This document shows positions 847-19,189 of a DNA stretch of 64,000 bases, piece after piece. Below the pieces are notes generated by a model. That model was not told the origin of the DNA. It did not search any database and saw only the letters and a list, made by a program, of their open reading frames with translations. Each line of letters starts with the position of its first letter. Position 1 is the first letter of the stretch. Origin of the DNA: an uncultured Flavobacteriales bacterium (GTDB lineage: Bacteria > Bacteroidota > Bacteroidia > Flavobacteriales_E > Vicingaceae); assembly GCA_913056345.1 (NCBI GenBank), contig CAJXMH010000005.1, positions 1 through 64,000 on the forward strand, in the 5' to 3' direction. Made by a program: the position numbers and the translations under genes.

Positions 847-911
847 GAATTCCTTGTCTTGTTCTCGATACCCGTCTCCTTACAGTCGAAGCACTCGAAC
901 TGACAAGGAAT
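847..911. repeat. 65-bp palindromic repeat, copy 1 (GIY-YIG-associated)
   Basis: The unit begins GAATTCCTTGTC (847-858) and ends with the exact reverse complement GACAAGGAATTC (902-913), so it is a long hairpin-forming unit. It carries an internal AGTCGAAGCACTCGAACT segment. By eye it matches 1434-1498 at 62 of 65 positions, differing only around 871-875. It sits 13 bp upstream of the start codon of the Nmad3-type gene on the minus strand. Confidence 0.9.
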
Positions 912-1059: not shown

Positions 1060-1122
1060 TAAAGTTTGTCACTTTGAGTGTCCCGATTCTATCGGGATGT
1101 ATCGAGAAGCAGACAAACTTTA
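1060..1122. repeat. Divergent 63-bp palindromic element overlapping GIY-YIG stop
   Basis: Outer arms TAAAGTTTGTC (1060-1070) and GACAAACTTTA (1112-1122) are perfect 11-bp inverted repeats. Between them lies a second hairpin, TCCCGAT-TCT-ATCGGGA (1081-1097), and a TATCGAGAAGC segment. Length and the TTGTC/GACAA arm core match the 65-bp repeats, but the outermost bases differ while staying complementary. Its right edge overlaps the last codon and stop of the GIY-YIG gene. Confidence 0.8.
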
Positions 1123-1419
1123 CTTTCCAAACTTCTTCTTCGACAACTCAGGCAATTTCTCAAAATGACCTTCAATCAAAGCCTGCTTTTTTGCCTTTGA
1201 CCATTTCTTTATTTTCTTCTCGAAAGCAATTGCCTTGTCGATGTACTGAAATTGTTCGTACCATTTTAGTTCAACAGGTCTTCTTCGATTGGTGTATGCT
1301 TCAGGATTAATACCTTCCTGATGTTCTTTTAGTCTTCTTTCTAAATTGTTGGTAACACCAGTGTAGTAGGTATTATCTGAACATTCTAGGATATAAACGA
1401 AATACTGGTGTCGGCACAT
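1120..1419 (-). CDS. GIY-YIG nuclease family protein, copy 1
   Basis: Product of 99 aa, the usual size of single-domain GIY-YIG (YhbQ/UPF0213-like) proteins. Visible motifs are FVYIL and YYTGVTNN for the GIY/YIG strands, the ERRLKEH helix with the conserved Arg and His, and IAFEKKIKKW with the Glu region, followed by a Lys-rich tail. Such proteins are predicted structure-specific DNA endonucleases; substrates of this Bacteroidota group are not established. It shares roughly 60 percent identity by eye with the second copy at 6439-6786. It lies between near-identical 65-bp palindromic repeats (847-911 and 1434-1498), and its 3' end enters a third element. TACCTTTA sits 4 nt before the ATG. Confidence 0.88.
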   Translation of the reverse strand: MCRHQYFVYILECSDNTYYTGVTNNLERRLKEHQEGINPEAYTNRRRPVELKWYEQFQYIDKAIAFEKKIKKWSKAKKQALIEGHFEKLPELSKKKFGK

Positions 1420-1433: not shown

Positions 1434-1498
1434 GAATTCCTTGTCTTGTTCTCGATAAACTTCTCCTTACAGTCGAAGCACTCGAACTGACAAGGAAT
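1434..1498. repeat. 65-bp palindromic repeat, copy 2 (GIY-YIG-associated)
   Basis: Same unit as 847-911, with 62 of 65 bases identical by eye. Its left arm GAATTCCTTGTC (1434-1445) pairs with GACAAGGAAT (1489-1498). It is 15 bp upstream of the GIY-YIG start codon, so the two copies bracket the gene in the same orientation. Confidence 0.9.
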
Positions 1499-6073: not shown

Positions 6074-6380
6074 TTTTATTAATTCAGTTGGTGAGCTATA
6101 ATTCTTCACTGGTTTGAAGCCTGAATGTACGATTAATCTGCTTGTGGTTTTAGACTTTGACTGCTAAGCTCAGGGCTCATCGTTTAAACCTCTCGAGGAT
6201 CAAATAGAAAGCTCCAAGGATAGATTCCATTCCGATGGGGATCGAGAAAAGCTCTGGAACTACTATTTACTATAGACAGGCATCAAAAACCATTATGCTT
6301 AGTGGGAGAGTTTTTATTTTTTCAAGATTTGCTTGTCATGCTGAGTAATGGGTAAATAGATCATAAAGGATTTTCTTGCT

Positions 6381-6405
6381 TGTCATGCTGAGCGATAGTC
6401 GAAGC
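6381..6405 (+). repeat. 25-bp repeat, left member of inverted pair around GIY-YIG copy 2
   Basis: The unit runs from TGTCATGCTGAG to GATAGTCGAAGC. Its reverse complement occurs at 6795-6819 with 24 of 25 bases matching, immediately beyond the GIY-YIG stop. This sequence resembles a short repeat seen widely in intergenic DNA of Flavobacteria, as far as I recall. Confidence 0.88.
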
Positions 6406-6426
6406 ATAAACAAGCAAAATAACCCT

Positions 6427-6434
6427 TAACTTTA
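6427..6434 (+). promoter_or_regulatory. -7-like element TAACTTTA, 4 nt before ATG
   Basis: Reads TAACTTTA-AATC-ATG. Same layout as GIY-YIG copy 1, although the surrounding sequence is different. Confidence 0.45.
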
Positions 6435-6438
6435 AATC

Positions 6439-6786
6439 ATGACCAAAGTACATTGCTATTACGTCTATATTCTTAAATGCTCTGACAAGTCATATTATAC
6501 TGGAGTGACAAATAATTTAGAACTAAGGATTGCACAGCATGATCTGGGAGTAAATAAAGAAGCCTATACCTACAATAGACGGCCTATTGAATTGGTTTTT
6601 AGCATTGAGTTTAAATACGTTGACAAAGCCATAGCGTTTGAGAAACAATTGAAAGGATGGTCGAGGAAGAAAAAAGAGGCGGTAATCAACAAGGAATGGG
6701 AAAAATTGAAAGAATTAGCTGAATGTAAAAATGAAAGTTCAACAAGACGTAAAGGGTATAAAAGGGATAAAGATTGGAGTGGGTAA
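6439..6786 (+). CDS. GIY-YIG nuclease family protein, copy 2
   Basis: Product of 115 aa. Motifs are YYVYIL, YYTGVTNN, ELRIAQH and IAFEKQLKGW, aligned one-for-one with copy 1 (about 60 percent identity by eye). Copy 2 has a longer, basic C-terminal tail after residue 95. It is a predicted structure-specific DNA endonuclease. The gene is flanked by a 25-bp inverted pair (6381-6405 and 6795-6819) and further partial copies on both sides, so it forms an about 440-bp unit with inverted repeat ends. Unlike an insertion sequence, it has no transposase motif. The identity is firm; the role in moving or maintaining the repeats is conjecture. Confidence 0.88.
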   Translation: MTKVHCYYVYILKCSDKSYYTGVTNNLELRIAQHDLGVNKEAYTYNRRPIELVFSIEFKYVDKAIAFEKQLKGWSRKKKEAVINKEWEKLKELAECKNESSTRRKGYKRDKDWSG

Positions 6787-6794
6787 TTGCCTAG

Positions 6795-6819
6795 GCTTCG
6801 ACTATCGCTCAGCCTGACA
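6795..6819 (-). repeat. 25-bp repeat, right member of inverted pair
   Basis: Begins GCTTCGACTATCG and ends CTCAGCCTGACA; it is the reverse complement of 6381-6405 with one mismatch. It starts 9 bp after the GIY-YIG stop codon. Confidence 0.88.
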
Positions 6820-7120
6820 ATTCCCTTAATTTATTATCTGCTCAGCCTGACAATCCTCTTAATTGCTGCTCAGCTCGGCATGATAATTCTTTTAATTTTA
6901 TGAATTTCAAAGCCTAACAACTCTTTTAGTTCATGCTTAGCTCAATCTGATAATGTCCACAATTCTTCTGATTCATTCTTTGTTCAGCTTGCTCCAAGTT
7001 GCTCAAGCCTGTTATTTTTATTATTCAGTTCTTCGATTGCTTATAAAAGCAAGATTCAAACAGCATTCTATTAAATTTTAACCCACTTAAAGTGCAATTA
7101 GCATACTTGAACTTACAAGC
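6820..7120. repeat. Decaying array of CTCAGCCTGACAAT-like units; no gene
   Basis: After the 25-bp repeat the motif GCTCAGCCTGACAAT-nnnn-TTAATT recurs with roughly 30-40 bp spacing, becoming more degenerate to the right. Recognisable copies are near 6807 and 6840, with poorer ones near 6868, 6910, 6937 and 6984. No reading frame with protein-like sequence is present up to the stop of the TonB-dependent receptor gene. Confidence 0.6.
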
Positions 7121-18112: not shown

Positions 18113-19189
18113 TTGATCAATTTTGTAATCAAACGTCTTGCTTATGGTTTACTCGTTCTATGGGGAGTTCTCACTGTCGTCTTTTTTATTTTTAATATTC
18201 TTCCTGGCGATCCTGCAAGAATGATGCTTGGTCAAAGAGCTGATCAAGCTGCTGTGGATGAGATTAAGCGAGAACTTGGCATGGATCGCAGCATTTTGGT
18301 GCAATACGCCATTTACTTGAATGACCTTTCTCCGCTATCTTTTCATCATCAAAATAAAAACGCTTCCACCTACTATGATGCGAAAAAATATCAGGGAACG
18401 GTTCTTCTCTCGATCAAGCAATACAAACTTGCTCTTAAAGCTCCTTATTTAAGACGATCTTATCAAAGTCAAAAAGAGGTTTCGGCAATCTTAGCTGAGA
18501 GTATCGGAGAAACTGCAGTTCTTGCCTTGGCTTCAATTTTATTAGCCGGCCTAGTGGGTATACTATTCGGTTTACTGGCTGCACTTTTTCAAGATAGCTT
18601 CTTTGATCGAGCGCTGCTTTTTATAGCCACCTTAGGAATGGCTCTTCCATCCTTCTTTATTGGGGTAATTGTAGCATGGTTATTCGGTTTTGTGTGGTCC
18701 GATTTGACAGGTTTGAACATGACAGGTAGTTTATATGAAGTAGACGATTTAGGGAGGGGAGAGTATTTGCAACTTTCTAATTTGATCTTGCCTGCATTAA
18801 CCTTGGGCGTTAGACCACTTTCAGTTATTTTGCAATTAAGCAGAAATGCGCTCTTAGAAGTATTGCAAATGGATTACATTAGAACAGCTAAAGCAAAGGG
18901 GTTAGCACAATCAACAGTGGTTTTGAAGCATGCTCTTAAAAATGCGATGAACCCTGTGCTTACAGCCTTATCAGGTATGTTTGCCTCTTTAATGGCAGGA
19001 GCGGTTTTTGTAGAGATCATTTTTTCATGGAAAGGAATAGGATGGGAGATCGTTAACGCCTTGGAAAAGTATGATTTGCCAATTGTAATGGGAGCCGTTC
19101 TTTTGATTGCGGCTATATTTGTTTTGATAAATATTATTGTAGACCTGTTATATGGGGTCTTAGATCCGAGAGTTAGAATCAAATCATAA
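18113..19189 (+). CDS. ABC transporter permease, DppB/OppB type
   Basis: Product of 358 aa starting at TTG 18113, 12 nt after the previous stop; no better ATG lies near the first membrane segment. The N-terminus (VIKRLAYGLLVLWGVLTVVFF, ILPGDPARMMLGQ) and the EAA-type loop DYIRTAKAKGL near 260 identify the peptide/nickel permease family. About six transmembrane segments are visible. Partner permease, ATPases and binding protein are not in the neighbourhood, which is usual in Bacteroidota where these genes are scattered. The substrate is probably di- or oligopeptides. Confidence 0.9.
   Translation: MINFVIKRLAYGLLVLWGVLTVVFFIFNILPGDPARMMLGQRADQAAVDEIKRELGMDRSILVQYAIYLNDLSPLSFHHQNKNASTYYDAKKYQGTVLLSIKQYKLALKAPYLRRSYQSQKEVSAILAESIGETAVLALASILLAGLVGILFGLLAALFQDSFFDRALLFIATLGMALPSFFIGVIVAWLFGFVWSDLTGLNMTGSLYEVDDLGRGEYLQLSNLILPALTLGVRPLSVILQLSRNALLEVLQMDYIRTAKAKGLAQSTVVLKHALKNAMNPVLTALSGMFASLMAGAVFVEIIFSWKGIGWEIVNALEKYDLPIVMGAVLLIAAIFVLINIIVDLLYGVLDPRVRIKS

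Follow-up and report, generated by a model that had tools for sequence, protein, structure and literature searches.

TGTC-tagged REP hairpins around a small GIY-YIG nuclease gene: a probable REP-GIY-REP element in a Flavobacteriales genome and its relatives

Two GIY-YIG genes between inverted repeats

The window, by which we mean the whole stretch of 64,000 nucleotides analysed here, contains at positions 6380–6820 a small unit in which a GIY-YIG nuclease gene lies between two inverted repeat arms. The gene (6439–6786, plus strand, 115 aa) was assigned by a profile match to PF01541 (68 bits against a cut-off of 22.6), by its closest solved structures (1zg2 and 1ywl, UPF0213) and by its motif and catalytic residues, scored as Tyr, Tyr-x-Gly, Arg and Glu: Y10, Y20, G22, R30, H34 and E68 are at least 95% (95–100%) conserved among 55 REP-flanked relatives, and the window protein has them all. 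GIY-YIG is the sole domain encoded in the unit, as an earlier sequence-only reading had stated, and a Y1 HUH transposase is absent from it. Rfam gave no family match, and PADLOC gave no defence model match.

That reading had also described a 25-bp inverted pair with one mismatch, its right copy beginning 9 nt beyond the stop codon, and we recover it exactly: positions 6381–6405 read TGTCATGCTGAGCGATAGTCGAAGC and the reverse complement of 6795–6819 reads TGTCAGGCTGAGCGATAGTCGAAGC. The pairing in fact reaches 34 nt at 88% identity (6380–6413 against 6787–6820). This is the single inverted 25-mer pair in the whole window with at most one mismatch and at most 1 kb between its copies, and at up to three mismatches the arm sequence occurs at these two places only in the 2.92-Mb genome. 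Outside the left arm lies a partial REP (TGTCATGCTGAG, 6334–6345, plus strand) that belongs to a direct repeat (6329–6345/6376–6392), while on the right three degenerate 33-bp direct repeats with the REP tag end GCTCAGCCTGACA occupy 6807–6905 (minus strand), the first of them overlapping the right arm. These degenerate partial copies suggest repeated REP turnover around the unit.

The same architecture, a GIY-YIG open reading frame between inverted TGTC-REPs, occurs a second time in the window at 847–1498. The gene there (1120–1419, minus strand, 99 aa) shares 59% identity with the gene at 6439–6786. It has one REP on its 3′ side (TGTCACTTTGAGTG..hairpin..ATCGAGAA, 1067–1108, plus strand), an inverted one on its 5′ side (TGTCAGTTCGAGTG...ATCGAGAA, 1449–1492, minus strand) and an extra copy at 862–905 (minus strand), direct relative to that at 1449–1492.

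The arms as hairpins of the CGTC REP type

Both arms follow the layout TGTC-A-NN-CTGAG-loop-CGAAG-N'N'-T, the left (6380–6413, plus strand) as TGTCA-TG-CTGAG-CGATAGT-CGAAG-CA-T and the right (6787–6820, minus strand) as TGTCA-GG-CTGAG-CGATAGT-CGAAG-CC-T. Within the hairpin they differ at two positions (T/G and A/C, giving TG...CA against GG...CC), and since these fall at one N and its partner N', the change is compensatory and each arm keeps its own hairpin. In 170 related REPs of the window arm layout, drawn from the fetched loci taken together, standard base pairs occur at the two variable positions of the stem in 94% and 92% of cases; shuffling lowers these figures to 44% and 38%. The stem core CTGAG/CGAAG holds a tandem G.A, so that the fully Watson–Crick stem is about 5 bp long, with A-T as its first pair. 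Because the window arms taken alone fold weakly under DNA nearest-neighbour energies (z −0.3 and −0.65), our case for the hairpin rests on covariation and not on energy.

REPs of the CGTC type, as surveyed by Di Nocera et al. (2013; PMC3733652), have an unpaired tag CGTC, also TGTC, a stem of 8–9 bp that opens with A-T pairs, a loop of about 4–5 nt and a tail that is mostly CCA; they are mostly arranged head-to-head in pairs and include the Neisseria dRS3 and Rickettsia RPE repeats. The window arms share the tag (TGTC on both, with GTAG absent), the hairpin layout and the head-to-head pairing. They depart from the description in their tandem G.A core, in their ends (TAA/TAG and not CCA, although relatives such as L042 and L250 do have CCA) and in being few in their own genome, where window-type REPs number three, one of them outside the unit, against up to 132 in relatives. 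On tag and layout, though without the CCA tail, we class the arms as REP hairpins of the CGTC type that carry the TGTC tag. We considered whether they might be classical transposon terminal inverted repeats and ruled this out, as they are hairpin REPs that also occur solitary or in gene-less pairs.

REP pairs around GIY-YIG genes in other genomes

GIY-YIG genes were sampled from 46 genomes of the window's family and from a scan of species genomes, and their 250-nt flanks were tested for inverted repeats with a fixed local-alignment score. Inverted repeats flank 55 of 138 GIY-YIG genes as compared with 2 of 217 other open reading frames at the same loci; with runs of N removed and only isolated control frames retained, the figures are 53 of 135 and 1 of 68. 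The score of 142 at L149 came from a run of N and was excluded, and four loci with high scores from terminators or tRNA-linked repeats (L144, L145, L092 and L094) were omitted from the analysis of REP types. The flanking repeats are mostly REPs, that is, [CT]GTC-tagged hairpins of many sequence types (for example CGTCATTGCGGGCTTGACCCGCAATCT, CGTCATTGCGAGGNACGAAGCAATC and TGTCATTTCGACCTTGTGGAGAAATCT). When the upstream flank of one GIY-YIG gene was set against the downstream flank of another, an inverted match appeared in 2.4% of cases, so the arms match within a unit.

The association extends well beyond this family. REP-GIY-REP architecture was also found in Methylobacterium and Planktothrix, and when other phyla were sampled through plasmid-collection records with a second GIY-YIG query, 11 of the 15 fetched loci carried inverted repeats of the CGTC/TGTC type: Neisseria gonorrhoeae (whose repeat is of the dRS3 kind), Sinorhizobium meliloti, Azospirillum lipoferum 4B, Novosphingobium aromaticivorans, three Shinella (a pair of them at one orthologous site), Neorhizobium, Rhizobium CIAT894, Sphingobium and Spirosoma. 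Among the same 15, an Aeromonas locus had two repeats in direct orientation, and those of R. tumorigenes, Photobacterium and Sinorhizobium C101 had no such repeats. Several of these species or genera are listed as CGTC-positive in PMC3733652, and the repeats around the GIY-YIG genes of N. aromaticivorans, S. meliloti, A. lipoferum and Neisseria fit the description given there. The species scan added REP-flanked GIY-YIG genes from Eremiobacterota and, from Solimonas, an inverted repeat of related kind. The pattern spans alpha- and betaproteobacteria, cyanobacteria and, overall, at least four phyla. On a plasmid of Planktothrix agardhii (p1, L155), a REP-flanked GIY-YIG gene sits between an MmeI-type restriction–modification gene and the DISARM gene drmA.

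For about half of the small GIY-YIG genes in the family, no REP pair is detectable; among the small genes, some adjoin tRNAs and some resemble fixed operon members. Relatives embedded in operons are without REPs; one of them, yazA of B. subtilis, lies between conserved genes. A separate subgroup forms tandem arrays next to tRNA genes (L091, 2942–7583 in G002:C9; L092, 3097–4854; L093, 2356–3092), with 10.2 copies of 457 bp at tRNA-Met, 4.6 copies of 379 bp at tRNA-Asn and 2 copies of 362 bp at tRNA-Pro, respectively, and three further loci (L094, L134 and L147) have single or paired copies next to tRNAs. At G004:C13:17805–18983, five same-strand REPs surround a GIY-YIG gene (18321–18581) with a spacing of about 214 bp within two clusters, an arrangement that is a REP cluster and not a simple pair. 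Finally, one gene neighbourhood shared by two genera (L033 in G045 and L105 in G015) contains GIY-YIG genes that are oppositely oriented and differ in REP type, as if it had been hit twice or inverted.

REP type and copy number in relation to the nuclease gene

Across the 55 REP-flanked genes, the similarity of REP arms tracks that of the proteins between genomes (Mantel rho 0.43; the largest value in 2000 permutations was 0.20). On a maximum-likelihood protein tree, four REP classes require 11 changes as compared with 27 when shuffled (0 of 200 shuffles were as low), and the GCGRG type forms one clade with support of 92/94. The nearest relatives of the window gene (in G033, G001 and G035, at 64–69% identity) lie in other gene neighbourhoods, and those of G001 and G035 carry REPs that share the element ATAGTCGAAG.

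Copy number follows the gene as well. The pattern GTCATTGCGAGN{2,14}CGAAGCAATC occurs 49, 23 and 15 times in G015, G016 and G025, where the cognate gene is present, and 0–9 times in other members of that genus, with reversed controls at 0. Over the 46 genomes its count correlates with presence of the cognate gene (Spearman rho 0.60, within-genus permutation p 0.005), as does the count of the window's own REP type with its gene (rho 0.41, within-genus p 0.012). G016 is a strong outlier to the latter, having 132 REPs of the CTGAG type but no close GIY-YIG gene of the window type. A further genome, G012, has 15 GCGAG-type REPs, with its cognate protein matched only partially (59 and 41 residues, at C147:32135–32317 and C46:69652–69774), as if the enzyme had decayed once the REPs had spread.

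Units present and absent at defined junctions

Unit-free joined flanks were sought in 14 genomes of one genus. At the aroQ–MFS junction, three species have a unit, which starts with CGTCA and ends with TGACG, while in eight relatives the junction is contiguous and holds neither REP nor gene. At hemB–hemL, G016 has a unit, G022, G023 and G024 have the bare junction, and G020 has a gene-less REP pair. Elsewhere, A. lipoferum 4B has a unit between sufB and sufC that A. ramasamyi, A. oryzae and strain B510 lack, with flanks 95–98% identical between filled and empty sites, and a Sphingobium unit of TomTYG46 is absent from TomTYG74, which has a bare REP-like palindrome at the junction, and from TomTYG72. 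At four further sites it is gene-less REP pairs, about 60 bp long, that are present in some genomes and absent from others. The tags stand at or very near the outer ends of the units and gene-less pairs at these junctions.

The sequence-only reading took the unit at 6380–6820 for a miniature mobile element of about 440 bp with inverted ends, and named fixation in all relatives as the outcome that would speak against mobility. Homologous REP-GIY-REP units are instead present in some relatives and missing from others at empty junctions; as noted above, the arms are something other than classical terminal inverted repeats, so the proposal stands in its first part and not in its second. Nor did the edges yield the target-site duplication that it had proposed to look for: none was reproducible at the filled and empty junctions examined in relatives, where the intergenic flanks have diverged, too far in fact to tell gain from precise loss at every site. 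A ‘TA’ to the right of many REP pairs was considered as a target signal and proved indistinguishable from the AT-rich background. As for the window unit itself, its neighbours, which include a TonB-dependent receptor and a gene that we take to be of the DUF2779 type, are not adjacent in any relative compared, and because this flanking pair is not syntenic, no empty site can be shown for it.

A proposed mobilizing role for the nuclease

We interpret the unit at 6380–6820 as a REP-GIY-REP element in which the GIY-YIG nuclease is the cognate mobilizing enzyme of its REP family, a reading to which we give a probability of roughly 0.6. It draws on patterns in the sequences of relatives, namely the constraint on the hairpin, the symmetrical placement of the arms, the match of REP type to protein, copy number, and presence and absence at junctions. 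Weighed against it were the REP-less half of the small GIY-YIG genes, the G016 outlier, the want of a reproducible target duplication, the one REP outside the unit in the window's genome, the diverged flanks and the rejoining step discussed below. We also lean slightly towards the broader view that CGTC/TGTC REPs are the non-autonomous elements in a mobile system that has a hairpin-acting GIY-YIG nuclease as its sole enzyme.

Such an enzyme would recognize the REP hairpin, formed either in the single strands of replication forks or as a cruciform, and nick beside the CGTC/TGTC tag, upon which the hairpin-bounded DNA could be released or copied; the gene-less pairs of about 60 bp would then be non-autonomous derivatives of REP-GIY-REP units. 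GIY-YIG enzymes hydrolyse DNA, and we know of no strand transfer by them. The last step therefore cannot be the HUH mechanism of RAYTs, and the enzyme would not by itself account for rejoining; joining elsewhere would presumably fall to host repair.

The association could arise differently if the nuclease behaved like a homing enzyme, cutting existing REP pairs and being copied in by recombinational repair with the REPs as homology, while the pairs themselves were moved by something else. GIY-YIG homing endonucleases are well known, and both the gene-less pair of G020 at hemB–hemL, where G016 has the gene unit, and the bare palindrome of TomTYG74 are what such a history might leave; yet at aroQ–MFS the eight relatives lack REP and gene alike, and REP copy number follows the cognate gene, a correlation that pure parasitism on REPs would not call for. 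We regard this account as unlikely, though it deserves consideration. It is improbable that the REPs regulate or insulate a GIY-YIG gene with a host role, acting as its binding sites, terminators or hairpins for mRNA stability: the hairpins at 6380–6413 and 6787–6820 do lie near the start and stop codons, but copies of the same REPs away from the gene number in the tens and their presence varies at syntenic junctions, and the unpaired tag ranks among their most uniform parts.

A role in host maintenance, with the nuclease resolving REP cruciforms or hairpins and kept adjacent by chance or selection, would suit a fold whose SLX1 lineage includes structure-selective nucleases, according to PMC9071465; we find it quite improbable, as it leaves the symmetrical flanking, the match between REP type and protein clade and the presence and absence of units unexplained. 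Most doubtful of all to us is that the gene is mere cargo in REP-bounded DNA moved by a RAYT or another transposase. Other transposases were indeed suggested as possible mobilizers of CGTC REPs in PMC3733652, but that survey found no transposase gene flanked by them, whereas flanking of GIY-YIG genes recurs across at least four phyla, with matching specificities.

Relation to known systems and implications

The mobilizing role that we favour has its closest parallel in the RAYT/REPtron/REPIN systems of GTAG REPs, which likewise place one small nuclease gene between two inverted REPs, disperse gene-less REP pairs in the genome and have REP types that follow enzyme type. On our best reading, the GIY-YIG nuclease would do for the TGTC-tagged family roughly what RAYT does for GTAG REPs. 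RAYT belongs to the Y1 HUH transposases and works through a covalent tyrosine intermediate, whereas the window enzyme is a GIY-YIG hydrolase, and the tag is GTAG there and CGTC/TGTC here; in function the window system would resemble a REPtron, while, with neither HUH enzyme nor GTAG tag, it stands outside the REP/RAYT group. It resembles GIY-YIG homing endonuclease genes of the I-TevI kind in being a mobile unit that encodes a GIY-YIG catalytic domain, and differs in having no intron, no separate DNA-binding domain and hairpin bounds that recur elsewhere. By sequence the protein belongs to the single-domain UPF0213/YhbQ/YazA family (1zg2, 1ywl), from whose B. subtilis member it is set apart by its REPs and its surroundings.

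CGTC/TGTC REPs are one of two large REP super-families and occur across several phyla. They were described as elements that ‘apparently lack a dedicated transposase’ and with no associated gene (PMC3733652), whereas in the unit described here two of them enclose a GIY-YIG gene; a search confined to the open-access literature found no paper tying such genes to the REPs. Which enzyme, if any, spreads these REPs, the Neisseria dRS3 and the rhizobial and sphingomonad ones among them, was not settled in the 2013 survey, and the association reported here supplies a specific candidate. If the reading is true, many proteins of about 100 aa now annotated as ‘GIY-YIG nuclease family’ or ‘excinuclease ABC subunit C’ would be mobilizing enzymes of REP elements, and the GIY-YIG nuclease would join the enzymes able to move DNA in prokaryotes, as part of a mobile-element class without a DDE, HUH, tyrosine or serine recombinase or reverse transcriptase enzyme.
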